From Polyangium spumosum (GTDB lineage Bacteria; Myxococcota_A; Polyangia; Polyangiales; Polyangiaceae): a stretch of DNA of 64,000 nt. A program made the translations under genes and the position numbers. The stretch lies in contig NZ_WJIE01000020.1 in assembly GCF_009649845.1 (NCBI RefSeq), forward strand, positions 1 to 64,000, in the 5' to 3' direction. Positions 28,834 through 37,414 of this stretch are shown here, in pieces; within the stretch, counting starts at the first letter, position 1, and each line of letters starts with the position of its first letter. A model generated the notes under the pieces. That model was given only the letters and a program-made list of their open reading frames with translations. It had not been told where the DNA came from and made no database searches.

Positions 28834-29214
28834 TCACGGCTCGATGGTGATGAGATCGACCGCGAAGCACCGCAGCGCGTGCAGGCTCCGTCGTTGCCAG
28901 TGCATCTCGGGGTTCGAGGCGAGCCGGATCTTGTACTGCTTGCTCGGGTCGAGATCGACGACCTCGCTGATCCACGACACGAAGCTCTTGAAGCAGGACG
29001 AGTTCATGAACTCGAGCTTCTGGAAATCCACGCGCACCTCGGCCGCGCCGAGCCGCAGCGCCTCGCCGTGCAGGCGCGGCAGCAGCGCGTCCAGGCTGTC
29101 CTTCGCGGCCATGTCCGCGTTGCCCGAGAGGGTGAGGACGAGCGATTGTCCCTCGGCGTCGGCGTTCGCGGCGAAGTCGCGCAGCGAGACCGAGAGATCC
29201 CCGAGCGCGCTCAC
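28834..29214 (-). CDS. STAS-like anti-sigma-factor-antagonist-type protein
   Basis: About 126 residues, cytoplasmic. Alternating strands and helices fit a STAS-like fold: QSLVLTLSGNADMAAK, AAEVRVDFQKLEFMNSSCFKSF; the central FMNSS serines sit where the phospho-acceptor lies in SpoIIAA/RsbV proteins. The C-terminal half (YKIRLASNPEMHWQRRSL) differs from classical RsbV, so it belongs to a diverged STAS group. Start: GTG at 29214, which overlaps the stop of the upstream ATPase gene (GTGA). With the ATPase and SpoIIE-type phosphatase genes upstream it completes a partner-switching trio: kinase phosphorylates, phosphatase restores. Its final target is not encoded nearby. Confidence 0.72.
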   Translation of the reverse strand: MSALGDLSVSLRDFAANADAEGQSLVLTLSGNADMAAKDSLDALLPRLHGEALRLGAAEVRVDFQKLEFMNSSCFKSFVSWISEVVDLDPSKQYKIRLASNPEMHWQRRSLHALRCFAVDLITIEP

Positions 29215-29702
29215 GAGCTCCTCCGCGCCCTGACGGTCGTCTGCGCCAGGATCGTGACCCTGTCGTCCTCGATGGTGTGGCTCATCGTCATCTCCCCTTC
29301 GGCACGTACACGCACGAGACCGAGCCCCGAGCCCACCTTCCGCTTGGCGCTGCGCGCCATCGCGACCTGGTAGTGGCTGAAGGGATCGTCGTGCCGGCTC
29401 ATCTCTTCGAAGATAGCGGCGACCGCGGCGATGTGTTCGGCGTCCGCCCGGTTCACGAGCCGGATGGAGACGGTGCTCGTCGTCTCTCCGGGCTCGAACG
29501 TGATCGACAAAAACGTCGCGCCGTCGCTCGCGTATTTGACGGCGTTCTCCAGCAGCTCGTGGGTCGCGAGCGCCATCCGCGACACGGTGTCTCGGTCCTC
29601 GATCATCCGATCGTAGAAGTCGGACACGAACCTCCGGACGATCGAGATGAGCTCGACGTTGGGCTGGAACGAAAGCTCGAACGCGGTTGGGGTCAGGGTC
29701 AT
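29211..29702 (-). CDS. RsbW-like histidine-kinase-type ATPase (partner-switch kinase)
   Basis: About 163 residues, a single GHKL ATPase-like domain as in anti-sigma kinases. The N box is clear (LATHELLENAVKYASDGA) and a G2-like region GSGLGLVRVRAEGEM is present; the G1 DxGxG is not canonical (the aligned stretch reads RLVNRADAEH), so activity could be weak or the protein may belong to the SiaB-like group. It should phosphorylate or hold the STAS protein encoded by the next, overlapping gene. Start ATG at 29702, preceded by three tandem repeats each carrying an AGGA-like site. Lies 65 bases downstream of the phosphatase gene. Confidence 0.75.
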   Translation of the reverse strand: MTLTPTAFELSFQPNVELISIVRRFVSDFYDRMIEDRDTVSRMALATHELLENAVKYASDGATFLSITFEPGETTSTVSIRLVNRADAEHIAAVAAIFEEMSRHDDPFSHYQVAMARSAKRKVGSGLGLVRVRAEGEMTMSHTIEDDRVTILAQTTVRARRSS

Positions 29703-29729
29703 CGGTCCTCGCGGTCCTCGCGGTCCTCA
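29703..29729 (-). repeat. Three 9-bp tandem repeats before the ATPase start codon
   Basis: CGGTCCTCG is repeated three times (third copy ends in A). On the coding strand each unit reads CGAGGACCG, so three Shine-Dalgarno-like GAGGA elements precede the ATG. Only the last is at usable distance; slippage could alter translation. Confidence 0.55.
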
Positions 29730-29767
29730 CGAACAGGCGCGGCCGTGGATCTGCCGCAGAATCTAGC

Positions 29768-31561
29768 CTAACCCGCCCCGGCCGTCTCGATCGCTCGGTA
29801 ACGCAACACGAGCAGCGTCACGTCGTCGTCCTGGGCCTCCGCGAAGGCCGCCACGTCGTCGAGGATCACGTCGCGGATCTTCTCCACCGGCTCGGCCCCG
29901 AGCGCTTCGATCCGCTCCGTGAGCCGCTTCATCCCGTACATCTCGCCCGACGCGCTCCGCGCCTCCGTCACGCCGTCCGTATAGAGCACCATCACGTCGC
30001 CGTCTTCCAGGACGAGCTCGTCATCTTGCACGGTCCGCGTGATGTCACGCATCGCGCCGACCCAGGGCCCGAGCGTGGGGATCATCTCGGCCTTCCCGGT
30101 CCTCGCCCGCAGGATCACGATGTCCTCGTGCGCGCCGGCGAACACCACGCGGCCGCTCCGATGATACCGCATCACCGTCAGCGTCACGTGCTCGTCGTTG
30201 CGCAACCGGTTCCGGATGTTGTCGTAAAGCACGAGGTTCAGGACCCGCACGATGTCCTTCGGCGCCGCGTTCGGGTCTTCCCGGCCGAGCGCCGCGATCG
30301 CGCTCTGCACCATGAGCATCACGAGCCCCGATTGCAGCCCGTGCCCCGCCACGTCGCCGATCGCGAGCACGCCGCCTCCCTCCACCGGGAAGACGTCGTA
30401 GTAGTCGCCGCCGACCTCGCTCGCCGGGATCATCCGCGCCGCCACCTCGAGCCCCGGCACGTCGAGGCGCCGCGGCAGGATCGACGTCTGGATGCGCGCG
30501 CTGATCTCGAGCTCCTTCTCGAGCCGCTCCTTCGCGGCCATCTGCTTGCGCGACTCCGCGAGCTCACGCGCCATCCGGTTCATCGCCTCTCCGAGCGCGC
30601 GGAGCTCCGTCGGCCCGGACGTCGCCGCCTGCGTGTCGAGGTTTCCCTTCGACACGTCGGACACGAGCGCCATCAGCCCGTCGACCGGCCGCGACAGCCT
30701 GCGCGAGAGCACGAGCGCCACCGCCGCCGCCGCCACGAGCGCCAGGAGCGCGATGAGCGCCACGCGTGCTTCGAGCTCGCGCGACGTCGCGAGCGCTCGA
30801 TCGAGCGAGCGCGCGAGGTGGACCGTTCGCGCCGCGCCCGTGCCCGCGCCGAGCGCCCGCGACGTCGTGATGTACGGCCCGCCCTCGCCCGCGGCCGGCG
30901 CCGTGAACATGCGGAGCACCTCCTCCGGCGCGTCCGTTCCATCTTCGAGCTTCGAGTGCGCCACCACCGCGGGGCCGTCCGTCACTGCCACCACGCTCCC
31001 CGTCTGCAGACGCACCTCTTCTGCGAGCGCGTCTCCGAGCGCGAAGCCCAGCACGAGCACGCCGACCGTCTCGGTCCCGAACGAGAGCCGCCGCGCGACC
31101 ACCTCGTAGAGCTTGCCCTCGTTCGTCCAGAGCCCCGACGCCTCGCCTTCGCGCAGCGCGCCCGAGACGATCGGATCCTTCGACATGTCGAAGCCCGACG
31201 CCTTCGGATCGGCCACGTCCGCGAGCAGGCTCCCCGCTCCGTCCGTCATCAGGAACAGATCACTCTGCACCGCTTTGCGCAGCTCGACGGCCACGCCGTA
31301 CACCGTCTCCGGCGACACGTCCTCCGTCGCCACCACGGCCTTGACCCGCGGCTCCTCCGCCACGACGTGCGCCTTGTCCGCGTGCGCGCGCAGCCGCGCT
31401 CCGCGGTGCGCCTCGAAGACCCGCGCGCTTCGCTCGAGCGCCTCGCCGAGCTCCTCCCGCGCGCGCCGCTCCAGCACGATCGCCGCGCTCCCCGCCGTGG
31501 CGACCGTGATCGCCGCGATGAGGAGCACGATCCAGAGGAGCAACGTGCTCCTGAGCTTCAT
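29768..31561 (-). CDS. Membrane sensor with HAMP and SpoIIE/PP2C-type phosphatase domain (RsbU-like)
   Basis: About 597 residues. One membrane helix near the N-terminus (LLLWIVLLIAAITVATAGSAA), an extracytoplasmic sensor of roughly 240 residues with CACHE-like features, a second helix (ALIALLALVAAAAVALVLS), a HAMP domain (RRLSRPVDGLMALV), a coiled coil, then the phosphatase domain with ILPRRLDVPGLEVAARMIPA, VGGDYYDVF, IGDVAGHGLQSG, LYTDGVTEA and DDDVTLLVLR. The metal-binding aspartates are present, so it should dephosphorylate the STAS protein encoded two genes downstream in response to an external cue. ATG at 31561 overlaps the stop of the cytochrome gene (ATGA), tying phosphatase synthesis to that of the redox proteins. 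Confidence 0.9.
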   Translation of the reverse strand: MKLRSTLLLWIVLLIAAITVATAGSAAIVLERRAREELGEALERSARVFEAHRGARLRAHADKAHVVAEEPRVKAVVATEDVSPETVYGVAVELRKAVQSDLFLMTDGAGSLLADVADPKASGFDMSKDPIVSGALREGEASGLWTNEGKLYEVVARRLSFGTETVGVLVLGFALGDALAEEVRLQTGSVVAVTDGPAVVAHSKLEDGTDAPEEVLRMFTAPAAGEGGPYITTSRALGAGTGAARTVHLARSLDRALATSRELEARVALIALLALVAAAAVALVLSRRLSRPVDGLMALVSDVSKGNLDTQAATSGPTELRALGEAMNRMARELAESRKQMAAKERLEKELEISARIQTSILPRRLDVPGLEVAARMIPASEVGGDYYDVFPVEGGGVLAIGDVAGHGLQSGLVMLMVQSAIAALGREDPNAAPKDIVRVLNLVLYDNIRNRLRNDEHVTLTVMRYHRSGRVVFAGAHEDIVILRARTGKAEMIPTLGPWVGAMRDITRTVQDDELVLEDGDVMVLYTDGVTEARSASGEMYGMKRLTERIEALGAEPVEKIRDVILDDVAAFAEAQDDDVTLLVLRYRAIETAGAG

Positions 31562-32772
31562 GGCCTGATCACCACCGTCTTCGGCAGGTGCTCGCGCCCC
31601 TTGCCGGCTCGTTTCTCGCCGAACGGGATCTCGATCCTCCCCATCGATCGCTCCTCGGCCGGCACGCCGAGCGCCGCCGTGATCGCGGGCGACGCGCTCC
31701 TCCACGCGACCTCGATCACGAGCGAGCCTGCTCGCGGCGCGTCGAGCTCGAACGTGAACGTCCGCGCCCCGCCCGCCGCGATCCGCTCGTCGCTCTTCTC
31801 GGCCCGCGCCGCGTAAAACGGCACCTCGCGCCCTGCGTCGTCCACGAGCACCCGCCCGAGCACGCGCTCCTCGCGCGCTTGCGAAGGGCCCGCGTCGTCG
31901 CGCGCCTCGACGCGCACCACGACCTGCCTCCCTGGCATCCCGGACGGCACCGCGTGTCCTGCGCCTTCGTTCTTCAGCACCACGGAGACCTCGAGTTTAC
32001 CCGCTCGTTCGGCCGCCGACGCCACGATCCCGAGCGCCTTGCGGATGATCTCGCCTCCCTGGCCCATGAACCCGTGGTGCCCCACGCGCACCTTCCGCTC
32101 CGCGCCCGTCGCCGCGTGGGTCAGCTCCGCCGGCATGTGGCACTCCTGGCAGGCCGTGCCGGAGATCGAGAAGCTCGACGCGCGCCACTCGGCGTACTCG
32201 GTGAAGATCGGCAGGCTCTTGCCGCTGCCGAGTGGCATCGAGAACGCGTGACAACCGCCGCAGATGCGCGCCTCGCGGAACGACGGCGCGCAGCCCATCT
32301 TGTGGAAGTAGTTGTCTTTCGCGTCGCAGTACGGGCCGAATTTGCGATTTGCTTCGAGGTCGAACGAAAGCTGCGGCCTGTCCCCCTTCTCCGTGACCTC
32401 GCGGATCGCGTGGCAGGCCTCGCACGTCACGCCCTCGTCCACCGCCATCTCCGCGGGATCCGTCAGCGCCGCGAGCGGCGCGTGGCACGCCTCGCAGCCG
32501 GGGTCCTTCGCGCGCTCCCGCATCGCCACGTACAGCGGCGATCGACGCGCCGCCGCGTGCGCCGACGTCTTCCACTCCGCGTGGAGCGTGTCGTGGCACT
32601 CGCCGCATCGATCGGCTGGAAACGCGCGGGCGCGCGGGGGCGGGGGCGTCGGTTTGTCCGAGGAGGGCGAGGCGGCGGCGGCGGATGAGGCCGCTCGGTT
32701 CGAGGGCGCGGCGCCCTCACGCGGCGCGGAGGGCTCGCAGGCGCAGGCGACGCAGGCGACGAGCGCCGTCAC
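31558..32772 (-). CDS. Five-haem c-type cytochrome, probable lipoprotein
   Basis: About 404 residues. Five CxxCH motifs are visible: CGECH (56-60), CEACH (93-97), CEACH (117-121), CGGCH (171-175) and CQECH (208-212), all in the N-terminal half, spaced as in the cytochrome c554/NrfB-like multihaem fold. The C-terminal half (about 230-404) is a beta-rich domain with EAGHAVPSG-like haem-ligand histidines, reminiscent of multihaem cytochromes with an Ig-like tail. The N-terminus (VACVACACEPS) contains a lipobox-like cysteine but is short and lacks basic residues, which is odd for a signal. GTG at 32772 overlaps the stop of the cupredoxin gene (GTGA); no better start exists. With cupredoxin and porin upstream it may form an electron path across the outer membrane. 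Confidence 0.88.
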   Translation of the reverse strand: MTALVACVACACEPSAPREGAAPSNRAASSAAAASPSSDKPTPPPPRARAFPADRCGECHDTLHAEWKTSAHAAARRSPLYVAMRERAKDPGCEACHAPLAALTDPAEMAVDEGVTCEACHAIREVTEKGDRPQLSFDLEANRKFGPYCDAKDNYFHKMGCAPSFREARICGGCHAFSMPLGSGKSLPIFTEYAEWRASSFSISGTACQECHMPAELTHAATGAERKVRVGHHGFMGQGGEIIRKALGIVASAAERAGKLEVSVVLKNEGAGHAVPSGMPGRQVVVRVEARDDAGPSQAREERVLGRVLVDDAGREVPFYAARAEKSDERIAAGGARTFTFELDAPRAGSLVIEVAWRSASPAITAALGVPAEERSMGRIEIPFGEKRAGKGREHLPKTVVIRP

Positions 32773-33458
32773 TTGTAGCGGCCGTATGGCGTCCCGTCCT
32801 TTCTCAGGTGCCGCTTCGGCGCCGCGCCTTCCTTCACCGTCGGCCGGAACGACGCCGCGCCGCCCGCCGCGATCGTCACCTCGCCGCGCGCCTCCTGCCC
32901 GTGGGCGTGCCACGCGACGATGGGATACGTCCCCGCGGGGACGTTCTTGATCTGGAACGATCCATCCTTGCCCGTCACGGCGTAGAAGCCGTTGTCGAGC
33001 ACCTTGATCTTCGTGACCATCTGCGGGTGGATGTTGCAGTAGACGTCCACCACGCCCGCCTCGCGGAACGTGACGGATTTGCTCTCGCCGCTCTTGTACA
33101 GCCCGAGATCGAAGCGCGCGGCCTTCGAGACCGAAAAGACGTTGTGGAAGACCTTGTCGTCGTTGGGGAACTCGACGGTCGTGCCCTTCACGATGACCAT
33201 CAAGCCCGGCGAAAACGTGAGGTTCTTCTGCCGGATCTGCCGCTTGCCGGCCGGGGCGGGCGCGCCGGGCGCGTTCTCCAGGTAGACCACCACGCCCGAC
33301 CGATCAGCCTTCGGCGCGTCGTCCACGAGGACCGTCACCACGCCCGCGACGTTGCCCGCGGCGGGCGCTTCGGCGTGGCTCTCCCGCGAGGCGACGAGCG
33401 GCGCCGTCACCGCGCCGAGGGTGATCACGAAAGCCAGGAGCCGAGAGCAACCACGCAT
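32769..33458 (-). CDS. Periplasmic cupredoxin-like protein (plastocyanin/MauL type)
   Basis: About 229 residues. A signal peptide (LLAFVITLGAVTAPLVASRESHA) precedes a cupredoxin fold in which a type-1 copper site is apparent: His in KVFHNVFSV, Cys and His in VDVYCNIHPQM, with the Met as fourth ligand. A carboxypeptidase-regulatory-like beta-sandwich follows (DGSFQIKNVPAGTYPIVAWHAHG). This combination occurs in methylamine-utilisation-type electron carriers. ATG at 33458 has GAGGAG at eight bases. It is the second gene of the porin-cytochrome operon; it is expected to pass electrons in the periplasm, though the donor and acceptor are not known. Confidence 0.85.
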   Translation of the reverse strand: MRGCSRLLAFVITLGAVTAPLVASRESHAEAPAAGNVAGVVTVLVDDAPKADRSGVVVYLENAPGAPAPAGKRQIRQKNLTFSPGLMVIVKGTTVEFPNDDKVFHNVFSVSKAARFDLGLYKSGESKSVTFREAGVVDVYCNIHPQMVTKIKVLDNGFYAVTGKDGSFQIKNVPAGTYPIVAWHAHGQEARGEVTIAAGGAASFRPTVKEGAAPKRHLRKDGTPYGRYK

Positions 33459-33479
33459 GCGCCATTCTCCTCGGGGTCG

Positions 33480-34928
33480 TCAGTATTTCAGGAGCATCGA
33501 GCTCGTGAACACGTCGTTCGGAAACTGGGGGGCGCGGCCCAGCTCGCGGTTGAGATTGTACTCGGCCTTGAGGAGGAGATGGGGACCGAGCTCCATCCGC
33601 ACCCCGGCCGTCGCGCGAAGGGCCTGGGATACATAGACGAAGCTCCGGCCGCTTCGATGCAGCGCGTCGCGCACGTCGACCCGCGCATACGGCGTGAGCC
33701 AGTTCAAGACCCGGTAGCCCGCCTGCACGTAACCGCCGCGGTACCGCAGGCAAGGAGCGAGGCTGCAAGGCGCCTCTCCAGGCGCGGCCTTGCCGTCGAC
33801 GACGCCCTGCATGAGCTCGGCCGTCACGTCGAAATCGCGCCAATCGAGGTGCAGGTCCACGCCGACGTGCGTGTGCAGCGCGTCCTCGGCGCTCTGCAGG
33901 TCCTGCGCCCCGATCGAGCCCGAGAGCCCGACCTCGAGCCCGGCGCCGAGCGGCGCGCGGGCGGCGATCCGGCCTGCCGCGGTCTTCCAGTCGTTCCGGT
34001 CGATCTCGCCGTGAAATGGGAACGTCTCGGCCCCGTGGCTCCCGTTCGTCACGGCCACGTTCAGGATCATCGCCCCGTCCCAGAACTTCCCGCGCGCCTT
34101 CACGCCGAGCGGCGAGCCGCAGGTGTATCGGCAGAGCAAGGACGGCGTCACCCCGAGCCGGTCGGGCGCCTCGCGGCTCCGGTACTCCCAGCCGAGCACC
34201 GAATCGAACTTCCCCGCATAGAGGCTGAGCTCGAAGCGCTCGATCGGCACGAGGTACTCCGCGTAGGCGAGCTTCACGTCGATGAAATCGCCGAGCGCCC
34301 GGTCCCCCGGCGCCGAGACGTCCCTCGCCCGCGGCACGAAGTCGATCGAGGCCGTCAGCGTGAGATCCTCGCGCGGGGCCGCGAAGAGCTGCATGTTGAG
34401 CGCGTTCACGGCGAACGACGATTTGCCGCCGCTATCGACGGAGTCGAACGTGAGCGCCCGCGACTCGCCGGTGTCCGCGGGCTCGCCGCGCGCGTTCACC
34501 ATCGTCGAGAGCGGGTCGCCGTAAAACACCCACGATTGCGGGACCTCCCCCCGCCACTCGGGGAAATGGCGGTGCCCGATGTCGCTCCGTATCCCCGCCC
34601 CCGTGCCCGTCGCCCGGAAAAAACCGAAGTCGAGGTAGCCCCCGAGCTTGCTCGCGATCGGCAGGAGCTTCTGGATCTGCTGGTCGAAGAAGCTCGCGTC
34701 GTCCTCGAGCTTCGCCACCTTCTCGCGCGCCGCCTCGTTCTGCTTCGCCGCGCGCTCGAGCTCCGCGACGCGCTCGCGCATGCGCCGGTTCTCCTCCTCG
34801 AGCGCGCGGAGCCGGTCGTCGACCGTTCGTCCCGGCCCCTCGGCCTTTGCCTCCCCCTCCGCCGCGCGCGCCGCGGGAGGCACGATTCCGACGGCCATGA
34901 AGAGCACGATCGAGAACGGCTTCCTCAT
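33480..34928 (-). CDS. Outer membrane porin with N-terminal coiled coil
   Basis: About 482 residues: signal peptide (IVLFMAVGIVPPAARA), a coiled coil (residues 35-90, rich in Glu/Arg, LRALEEENRRMRERVAELE), then a large beta barrel with alternating strands such as FELSLYAGKFDS and a C-terminal end SSMLLKY. The layout is that of OprO/OprP-like or related porins with a periplasmic trimer-forming helix. First gene of the operon, 21 bases ahead of the cupredoxin gene. A porin next to a multihaem lipocytochrome is also the arrangement of porin-cytochrome conduits; whether it binds the cytochrome is inference. Confidence 0.82.
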   Translation of the reverse strand: MRKPFSIVLFMAVGIVPPAARAAEGEAKAEGPGRTVDDRLRALEEENRRMRERVAELERAAKQNEAAREKVAKLEDDASFFDQQIQKLLPIASKLGGYLDFGFFRATGTGAGIRSDIGHRHFPEWRGEVPQSWVFYGDPLSTMVNARGEPADTGESRALTFDSVDSGGKSSFAVNALNMQLFAAPREDLTLTASIDFVPRARDVSAPGDRALGDFIDVKLAYAEYLVPIERFELSLYAGKFDSVLGWEYRSREAPDRLGVTPSLLCRYTCGSPLGVKARGKFWDGAMILNVAVTNGSHGAETFPFHGEIDRNDWKTAAGRIAARAPLGAGLEVGLSGSIGAQDLQSAEDALHTHVGVDLHLDWRDFDVTAELMQGVVDGKAAPGEAPCSLAPCLRYRGGYVQAGYRVLNWLTPYARVDVRDALHRSGRSFVYVSQALRATAGVRMELGPHLLLKAEYNLNRELGRAPQFPNDVFTSSMLLKY

Positions 34929-35085: not shown

Positions 35086-36585
35086 TTGAGCTCGGCCGCG
35101 CTCCCCAGCGAGCTCGTCGTGCGCTTCCGCGGCGTCGCGCTCACGCGGCTCGATCGCGTCGAGGGCCATTGGGGCAACTTCATGCACGGCGAGGGCGGGC
35201 TCGAGCTCGCGGCCGAGATGCAGCAGGAGCTGCACACGCTGAAGGGCGAGGCCCGGATGATGCACTTCGGCGGGCTCGCCACGCTCTGCCACGCGCTCGA
35301 GGGCCTCGTCGCGGCCGTCGCGCGGCGCGGCCGGCGCGTGCCCGAGGACGTCGACCCCGTCGTCACCATGGCCATCCGCTTCATGGTCGTGATCCTGCGG
35401 CGCAAGGACGCGGCCCCCGCCGCGGGCATGGACGTCGACGGCTTCGTCCGGCAGATCGAGGAGGTCCTCGCCGAGATCTCGGCCGACGCCGAGCCCGAGG
35501 CGCCCGTGCCCGTCCCGGAGCCACGCTCGGCCGCCTTCGACCTGCCCGATCGAGTCTCGATGGTCACGCAGCAGCGCCTCGCGGCCCTCGCGGCGCGGGT
35601 CTTCGTCGAGCACGTCGCGGCGGGGCGCGCGCGCGGCCGGCTCGGCGACGTCTTCCGCGCGCTCGCCGAGGAGGTCGGCTCGCTCTCGGCCATCCCCCTC
35701 GCGCCGCGCCTCTCGCCTCACGAGGAGGCGGCGCGGGCCCTCGCGGAGAGCCTCGGCAAGGACGTCCGCGTGGCCTTCGACGTGGGCGACGTGCGCGTGC
35801 GCGCCGAGGTCGCCGAGGCGGTGGAGGTCGTCCTCTTGCACGCGCTCCGCAACGCGGTGGATCACGGCGTCGAGCGGCCCGAGGTGCGGCGCGCCGCGGG
35901 CAAGCCCGAGCGCGCGTCGATCGTCGTCTCGGCGCGGCAGAAGGGCGCCGAGGTCGAGATGTCCGTCGAGGACGACGGCGCGGGCGTGAACTTCGACGCC
36001 GTGCGGGAGCGCGTGGTGGATCTCGGCCTCTCCACGGCGGAGGGGGCCGCGCGCGCGCGGGACGACGACCTGACGGAGCTGCTCTTCCGCCCTGGGATGA
36101 GCACGCGCACCGAGGTGACGGACGTCTCGGGCCGCGGGATCGGCCTCGACGCGGCGCGGGCCGCCATCCAGCGGGTCGGCGGCCGCGTCGCCCTCAGCAC
36201 GCGGCGCGGCCAGGGCGCGACGCTCCGGATCCGCGTCCCTCAGGCGAGCCACCTCCTGCCTGTTGTCTGTTTCCCGGCGCGGGGGGCGGATCTCGTGCTC
36301 GCGGTGGCGACGAGCGGCGGCGTCCGCGTCGTGCCGGCCGAGGGGGGGATGCCGGCCGTCGATCCGGTGGAATATTTCGATATGGCGCCCCCGGGCGGGG
36401 CGCGGAGCGGCGAGGGCGTGCGGATCGAGGTGCGGCGCGGCGAGGCCCGCTTCACCTTGCGTGGCGGCGGCGAGCCCTGGGCGGCCCTGGCCACGCGGCT
36501 TTGTCCCACGGCTGACGAATGCCCTGCGGAGATCGTGTGTGTCGACGGGATGGACGTGCTGCTCGTGCGGCCCGAGGTATTCTGA
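35086..36585 (+). CDS. CheA-like histidine kinase
   Basis: About 499 residues, cytoplasmic. An HPt domain at the start has the phospho-acceptor His50 in LHTLKGEARMMHF. After a Pro-rich linker and a short dimerisation-like helix pair comes the CheA ATPase: LLHALRNAVDHGVE, VEDDGAGVNFDAV, LLFRPGMST, GRGIGLDAAR and a G-rich TRRGQGATL. The final 115 residues are a diverged CheW-like domain. TTG at 35086 is chosen because GAGGG lies five bases upstream and the HPt domain starts there; a GTG about 40 bases earlier is possible. No MCP or CheW gene is nearby; the next gene encodes a response regulator, its likely partner. Diverges from the porin operon. Confidence 0.87.
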   Translation: MSSAALPSELVVRFRGVALTRLDRVEGHWGNFMHGEGGLELAAEMQQELHTLKGEARMMHFGGLATLCHALEGLVAAVARRGRRVPEDVDPVVTMAIRFMVVILRRKDAAPAAGMDVDGFVRQIEEVLAEISADAEPEAPVPVPEPRSAAFDLPDRVSMVTQQRLAALAARVFVEHVAAGRARGRLGDVFRALAEEVGSLSAIPLAPRLSPHEEAARALAESLGKDVRVAFDVGDVRVRAEVAEAVEVVLLHALRNAVDHGVERPEVRRAAGKPERASIVVSARQKGAEVEMSVEDDGAGVNFDAVRERVVDLGLSTAEGAARARDDDLTELLFRPGMSTRTEVTDVSGRGIGLDAARAAIQRVGGRVALSTRRGQGATLRIRVPQASHLLPVVCFPARGADLVLAVATSGGVRVVPAEGGMPAVDPVEYFDMAPPGGARSGEGVRIEVRRGEARFTLRGGGEPWAALATRLCPTADECPAEIVCVDGMDVLLVRPEVF

Positions 36586-36739
36586 GTCCGTCCATACCCC
36601 CGGTTTTTCCGCCGCGCGCGTGAATCGTGCCCTATGGTTACGTCCTTCTTGCCGTGGCTCGGGCGAGTCGGATACGATGACCGTCAATGGCCCCGTGCAT
36701 GTCGCCCGGGACCCCACCCTCGTCCGACGAGAGGCATCG

Positions 36740-37414
36740 ATGAGCGCGACGAAGCGACGGATTCTCGTGGTCGACGACAGCGAGATTTGCCGCGAGCTCG
36801 TCAAGCTGCTCCTGCAATCCCGTGGATTCGAGGTCGTCACGCTCGACTCGCCCTTCGGGTTCGGGGCGGCGGTCGCGCGCGAGCAGCCCGATCTCGTGCT
36901 CGTCGACGTGAACATGCCGGCGCTGCCCGGGGGTAAGCTGGTCGAGGTGGCGATCCAGAAGGGCATCCTCACGTGCCCCATCGTGTTTCACTCCGACCGG
37001 CCGGCGCGTGAGCTGCAGAGCCTGGTTTTGAGCACGGGCGCCTCGGGGTTCATCCCGAAGACCAACGACGCCGACGAGCTCGCGTCGCGGGTGGAAGAGT
37101 ACCTGAATGGCACGTGGCAGAAGCGGGATCGCGCCCCGGAGAGCATCCGGCCGAGCACGGCGCCGCCCGGCCCGCGCACCGACGTCCCGCCGCGGGTCCC
37201 GCGCTCCTCCGAGCTGCCGGCCCTCTCGGGCACCTCGTCCCAGTCCTTGCCTCCCCTGACCGCGGCGTCGATCTCGTCCCGCAACACGGACGCCCCGCCC
37301 ATGTCGCAGCGCAGCTTCGACGCGGCGCCCCTCTCGCAACGCTCGCCCGACGCGGCGCCGCACTCGCAGCGGACGGTGACGTCCTCGACCGGCTGGGTGC
37401 GCGGCAAGTTCTAG
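36740..37414 (+). CDS. Response regulator with disordered Ser/Pro-rich tail
   Basis: About 224 residues. The receiver domain (1-120) has ILVVDDSE, acceptor Asp56 in VLVDVNMPALPG, Ser in HSDRPARE and Lys in GFIPKTND. No DNA-binding or enzymatic output follows; instead a low-complexity tail with recurring SQRSFDAAP/SQRSPDAAP units. ATG at 36740 has GAGAGG upstream; the frame opens further 5'. It lies 154 bases after the CheA-like kinase and probably receives its phosphate, acting by protein contact as CheY does. Confidence 0.85.
   Translation: MSATKRRILVVDDSEICRELVKLLLQSRGFEVVTLDSPFGFGAAVAREQPDLVLVDVNMPALPGGKLVEVAIQKGILTCPIVFHSDRPARELQSLVLSTGASGFIPKTNDADELASRVEEYLNGTWQKRDRAPESIRPSTAPPGPRTDVPPRVPRSSELPALSGTSSQSLPPLTAASISSRNTDAPPMSQRSFDAAPLSQRSPDAAPHSQRTVTSSTGWVRGKF

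Follow-up and report, generated by a model that had tools for sequence, protein, structure and literature searches.

The 64,000-nucleotide window analysed here, from Polyangium spumosum, carries a six-gene operon on its minus strand, running from position 34928 to position 28834. In 5' to 3' order, the operon encodes a porin, a cupredoxin, a pentahaem cytochrome, a HAMP/SpoIIE phosphatase, an ATPase and a STAS protein. A first-pass annotation had proposed these six genes as one operon, and all of them were confirmed at their place and strand. Its neighbours are a divergent CheA-like gene and, at the opposite end, a convergent permease gene. The features of the region are the following:

33480..34928, minus strand: BBP2/OmpL-like outer-membrane β-barrel porin, 482 amino acids (aa)
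32769..33458, minus strand: exported type-1 copper cupredoxin with a carboxypeptidase-regulatory-like C-terminal part, 229 aa (Pfam Copper-bind, invariant ligands)
31558..32772, minus strand: PHC-family pentahaem c-type cytochrome, probably a lipoprotein, with a doubtful start (the GTG at 32772, or else an ATA lying five codons upstream)
29768..31561, minus strand: transmembrane sensor phosphatase with a Cache-like periplasmic domain, HAMP (43.2 bits) and SpoIIE/PP2C (SpoIIE 129.2 bits), 597 aa
29211..29702, minus strand: GHKL ATPase, presumed partner-switch Ser/Thr kinase, 163 aa (slr1658 superfamily 39.6 bits, below cut-off)
28834..29214, minus strand: STAS protein, 126 aa, with a phosphoacceptor-like NSS motif (32.3 bits to the slr1659 superfamily, under the cut-off)
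35086..36585, plus strand: divergent CheA-like protein (Pfam Hpt and HATPase_c), probably associated; start approximate

Within the operon, the porin and cupredoxin genes are separated by 21 bp and the SpoIIE and ATPase genes by 65 bp. The three remaining junctions are four-base overlaps, as had been claimed: GTGA between cupredoxin and cytochrome, ATGA between cytochrome and SpoIIE phosphatase, and GTGA between ATPase and STAS protein, the first of these depending on a doubtful GTG start. The cytochrome/sensor overlap is retained in nine of the eleven loci examined, and the ATPase/STAS overlap in all eight loci in which an ATPase gene directly precedes a STAS gene (six Polyangium loci, L019 and L093). 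No terminator-like site was found in the inter-gene gaps of the operon; two weak minus-strand sites lie inside the porin gene, with four found on both strands against 2.4 expected. The earlier proposal that a membrane sensor phosphatase is co-made with the redox proteins is supported.

The GTG start codon of the cytochrome is doubtful because it reads GTA in all five other Polyangium loci (L014-L018; window 32769-32790, minus strand). In one of them (L016), no in-frame ATG, GTG, TTG or CTG occurs between the upstream stop and the cytochrome signal sequence. Five codons upstream of the GTG, all six Polyangium loci have an ATA that is preceded, at a distance of 9 nt, by an AGGA-type ribosome-binding sequence, and a start at this ATA would improve the lipoprotein signal. 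It is possible that translation begins at this AUA or by reinitiation. The bases at the cytochrome start are also constrained by the overlap with the conserved tail of the cupredoxin, and in L020 (6840-6890) the cytochrome junction reads ATAG.

All six genes occur in the same order in the five other Polyangium genomes, and the order porin, cupredoxin, cytochrome, sensor recurs in six further genera (G036, G011, G014, G256, G045 and G393). Since the order is kept throughout Polyangium as well as in other genera and other families, the arrangement is more than chance, and the idea that it might exist only here is refuted. Among the 59 nearest genomes, 11 (the genome of the window included) have a cytochrome match at E ≤ 1e-20, and in ten of these the porin, cupredoxin and sensor genes are its neighbours. 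In the eleventh (G058, locus L023) none of the three was matched near the cytochrome, and the same holds for two weak cytochrome paralogues of the window's own genome (L024, L025).

The wider survey covered Myxococcota genomes and plasmids. Searching 377 Myxococcota genomes for the porin gave at least 16 places in at least 13 genomes, a lower bound, with at most four candidates scored per genome. The set examined comprises 21 porin loci, spread over 18 Myxococcota genomes in seven families; 16 were found by porin alone, and the other five, found through the cytochrome (G001, G002, G036, G011, G014), are a biased sample. A cupredoxin lies within 4.3 kb of the porin at every one of the 21 loci, including all 16 from the porin search. 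The pentahaem cytochrome is present at 14 loci and missing from the stretch seen at the other seven, and a MauG-like dihaem protein stands beside 12, none of them Polyangium. Taken together, a pentahaem or dihaem c-type protein is found at 20 of the 21 loci, with neither in L103. In L095 and L096 the sequence runs out beside the cupredoxin, leaving any genes beyond it outside view. In G123 and G376 the dihaem gene sits between porin and cupredoxin, and one genome (G388) has at least four porin-cupredoxin-dihaem loci (L095, L096, L097, L098), two of them with Ser/Thr kinases.

The cupredoxin scores 31.3 bits against Pfam Copper-bind (cut-off 21.2), and its copper ligands H105, C141, H144 and M147, the His-Cys-His-Met set of a type-1 site, are invariant in 20 of 20 cupredoxins. 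As a control, we inspected 12 regions around more distant cupredoxins (L111-L122, 15 copies; L116 and L120 are short), and none of the 12 gave a porin or a sensor-domain match. The link to porin and sensor therefore belongs to this cupredoxin subgroup. Two control regions stand out: a match in L112 falls on the HAMP region of the kinase at locus L022, and L118 (1758-3953) encodes, about 3.5 kb from the distant cupredoxin and with no porin or sensor, a long protein (732-codon frame) that matches the PHC profile.

The five CxxCH motifs of the cytochrome are invariant in all nine homologues. Profile searches matched it to 5ze8 (E 4.6e-32), which we take to be the pentahaem c552 of T. tepidum, to MccSep (9wt8; E 1.1e-18) and to cytochrome c554 (E 2.7e-5). 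Homology and the five motifs place it in the PHC/ExtKL/c552 family, and its score against the NCBIfam ExtKL model, 66.3 bits, is below the cut-off of 250. The PHC family unites ExtKL, Gsu2801 and T. tepidum c552 (PMC11976967). The lipoprotein sorting rules of M. xanthus, in which Lys at +2 directs to the inner membrane and Ala at +7 to the matrix (PMC3222651), do not decide where the cytochrome is located.

The sensor is the component whose output is swapped. Over the 21 loci, it is joined to SpoIIE in 12, to a CheA-type module in one (L022; Cache-HAMP-Hpt-HATPase) and, by weak sensor matches, to a Ser/Thr kinase in two (L098 and L103); in L097 a stand-alone sensor lies beside a Ser/Thr kinase, and in L094 the sensor is cut off by the contig end. 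In a tree of the sensors, the CheA-type sensor falls among the SpoIIE-type ones with moderate support (82/89). No Cys or His is invariant across nine sensor sequences, and the only invariant Met is M1, so that the sensor probably needs a partner or ligand. A profile of the periplasmic part also matched L015, L017, L094, L097, L098, L103 and plasmid proteins. When it was checked with 13 test proteins, the reversed copies gave no match, and six of the 13 real proteins gave none either.

The partner-switch proteins have intact motifs in all seven aligned sequences: the catalytic Asp motifs of SpoIIE, the ELLEN box of the ATPase and the NSS/NSA motif of the STAS protein. At 11 of the 12 SpoIIE loci, an ATPase and/or STAS relative lies within about 4 kb, in differing orders; in the twelfth (G123), which carries a Ser/Thr kinase, none was seen as far as the contig end. 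The ATPase and STAS protein do not reach the cut-off of 100 in the NCBIfam slr1658 and slr1659 models, and neither a sigma factor nor a cyclase is found among the six operon genes.

Related cassettes occur on proteobacterial plasmids. A tblastn search of plasmids with the cupredoxin returned 46 records, 32 of them from Sinorhizobium, and 15 records were fetched and examined. In 11 of these, the gene next to the cupredoxin encodes a related, intact sensor, carrying EAL or GGDEF-EAL by Pfam in L104, L105 and L106 and by annotation in L109, L124, L127, L128 and L129; for L108, L123 and L126 sequence motifs are the sole indication, and L126 shows just the EAL motif. H2 and H3 carry the same proteins and are not independent. 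In one further record, plasmid pSBC1_4 of Caballeronia sp. SBC1 (L125:4539-4955), the sensor gene is truncated to a Cache fragment. The annotation of eight of the 12 sensor-bearing records places a DUF3034 protein and a truncated haemoglobin of group 1 next to the cupredoxin, while L108, L123 and L126 are unannotated. By eye, signal-like N-termini are present on the globins at L106:4309-4872, L109:5537-5977, L124:3492-3923 and L129:3395-3844, which suggests that the truncated haemoglobins of the plasmid cassettes are periplasmic globins. In cable bacteria, PHC proteins are fused to truncated haemoglobin domains (PMC11976967), and such fusions connect the haem partners of the two cassettes, the myxobacterial and the proteobacterial. 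A DUF3034 search gave no match in the window's own genome or in 14 control genomes, an uninformative result since nothing was found anywhere, and DUF3034 appears in no paper among the matches listed from open-licence PubMed Central.

We favour the reading that the operon is a periplasmic haem/copper input cassette feeding an interchangeable transmembrane sensor, and would give it about an even chance of being right. According to this model, the porin would admit a small solute or oxidant to the periplasm, and the pentahaem cytochrome (elsewhere the MauG-like dihaem protein and, in Proteobacteria, the truncated globin) would react either with the cue itself or with the redox pool. The cupredoxin might then signal this redox or copper state to the inner-membrane HAMP protein through the latter's Cache-like periplasmic domain, and in Polyangium this protein would control its SpoIIE phosphatase. 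By homology to SiaA, which acts on SiaC against SiaB, the phosphatase would dephosphorylate the STAS protein and oppose the co-encoded ATPase/kinase, and the likely consequence in Polyangium is altered STAS phosphorylation. Sensors of the same kind would, at related loci, drive a CheA-type kinase, a Ser/Thr kinase or a GGDEF-EAL protein. A wider generalization is more tentative, and we regard it as possible rather than probable: a widespread modular haem-copper relay, in which an exchangeable haem protein (pentahaem, MauG-like dihaem or exported truncated globin) would oxidise or reduce the cupredoxin as the messenger to a Cache receptor with swapped outputs (SpoIIE switch, CheA-type, Ser/Thr kinase or cyclic di-GMP (c-di-GMP) enzymes).

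The input cassette appears to be a hitherto undescribed means by which bacteria sense extracellular chemistry. The first-pass annotation knew of no described system with this set of genes, and our search of the open-licence PubMed Central literature likewise found neither such a system nor a described equivalent of the cassette. If the model is correct, it would provide a concrete and testable case of the redox state of a periplasmic metalloprotein being relayed to the cytoplasm via a transmembrane receptor. It would account for cupredoxins labelled 'methylamine utilization protein' next to EAL proteins, and output swapping would permit the input to be rebuilt on a c-di-GMP reporter in laboratory strains.

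Several observations weigh against the input-cassette model. The window sensor scores only 14.3 bits against Pfam dCache_3 (PF14827; cut-off 25.7), and at 1e-3 this model has no match in the sensor's own genome; among related sensors, L022 (36.7 bits), L104 (56.3) and L105 (44.8) lie above the cut-off and L106 (24.3) and L097 (20.3) below it. The sensor profile was built from 11 cassette sensors, whose own matches to it arise by construction, and the two Ser/Thr kinase fusions match it weakly (L098, E 3.9e-7; L103, E 8.8e-6). The sensor was not found at four of the 21 loci, two of which end beside the cupredoxin (L095, L096) and two of which do not (L101, L102), nor in three of the 15 plasmid records (L107, L110 and L130; two Sinorhizobium, one Phyllobacterium). 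Plasmid locus L105 has neither globin nor DUF3034, and hhalign detected no homology between the DUF3034 barrel and the porin. Furthermore, the sensor and regulator may do no more than autoregulate a metabolic operon.

A rather unlikely alternative is a periplasmic oxidoreductase operon with its own regulator, in which the porin imports a substrate (an oxyanion, or a source of nitric oxide or peroxide), the haem protein converts it, the cupredoxin gives electrons and the sensor does no more than tune the pathway. Such an operon would be in keeping with the MauG-like dihaem genes at 12 of the 21 loci, with the proposal that PHC relatives with five-coordinate haems are potentially catalytic (PMC11976967) and with the lowered selenite and tellurite reduction on loss of ExtI, the porin beside ExtKL (PMC5877670). 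However, the haem enzyme is exchangeable or missing whereas cupredoxin and sensor recur, SpoIIE switches, c-di-GMP enzymes and kinases would be atypical autoregulators, and the cytochrome and sensor reading frames overlap in nine of the eleven loci examined. Copper sensing or handling, in which the cupredoxin would inform the sensor of copper in the periplasm and the haem proteins would be accessories, appears improbable: the cupredoxin is indeed the most constant partner and its ligands are invariant, but no copper transporter or chaperone was seen among adjacent genes, and the multihaem protein at 20 of the 21 loci points to redox chemistry.

The earlier suggestion that porin and multihaem cytochrome form an outer-membrane electron conduit, with the porin wrapped around the cytochrome, electrons passing outside and the phosphatase co-made, found no support and is improbable. 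It draws on the adjacency of porin and pentahaem lipocytochrome in 14 of the 21 loci and on the proposal that the ExtKL family, this cytochrome's own, acts in extracellular electron transport (PMC11976967). Against it, no MtrB/PioB- or OmbB-type Pfam barrel was matched by the window porin (E ≤ 0.1) or by 16 homologues (E ≤ 0.01), the 64-kb window holds a single open reading frame with at least two CxxCH motifs and hence no pair of periplasmic and surface cytochromes, and at seven loci porin and cupredoxin stand without a pentahaem cytochrome in the sequence that was in view. The input cassette fits better than a conduit because the cupredoxin and the Cache-type receptor are constant while haem protein, barrel and output vary. 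A milder link to conduits remains in the kinship of the cytochrome to Geobacter ExtKL, which is encoded beside the porin ExtI (PMC5877670, PMC11976967).

Four known systems resemble the operon in part. In SiaABC(D) of Pseudomonas aeruginosa (PMC7647112), a PP2C phosphatase, a kinase and a STAS-like target are likewise encoded together; the window phosphatase, however, reaches 66.4 bits against the SiaA model (NCBIfam NF038263), far under its cut-off of 700, and the operon lacks a diguanylate cyclase and has its periplasmic input joined to porin, cupredoxin and cytochrome. The Geobacter ExtHIJKL cluster (PMC5877670, PMC11976967) also places a porin next to a pentahaem cytochrome of the same family, whereas the operon has no rhodanese and no 10- or 12-haem partners, and has a cupredoxin and a sensor. 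The MtrCAB and OmbB-OmaB-OmcB conduits (PMC5585712) co-encode a barrel and a multihaem lipocytochrome, but the operon has a single multihaem protein and no MtrB-type barrel match. The sCache_heme sensors (PMC12889525, preprint) share Cache-type periplasmic sensing, c-type haem and diverse outputs; in these the haem lies inside the Cache domain, whereas the haem of this operon belongs to separate proteins, and no Cys or His is invariant in the sensor.

The porin has a signal-like N-terminus (by eye), and a coiled-coil-like stretch at about residues 38-90 precedes the barrel. Its match to BBP2/OmpL-like models is weak (17.6 bits, cut-off 26.2), and seven of 16 porin homologues match such models at E ≤ 0.01. 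Hydrophobic alternation gave 29 strand peaks, a method too permissive to use. Predicted structures of the porin and of the sensor ectodomain, both built from five close Polyangium sequences, were discarded (mean predicted local distance difference test scores of 30.9 and 42.6, respectively), and profile searches of the PDB with either protein returned nothing useful.

The CheA-like gene divergently adjoins the porin in all six Polyangium loci and in L019. Its product shares 28% identity (E 1e-28) with the kinase portion of the L022 sensor fusion, a similarity that may reflect general CheA homology, both being CheA-like. By eye, a receiver-domain-like protein follows it at about 36700-37414 of the window, on the plus strand.

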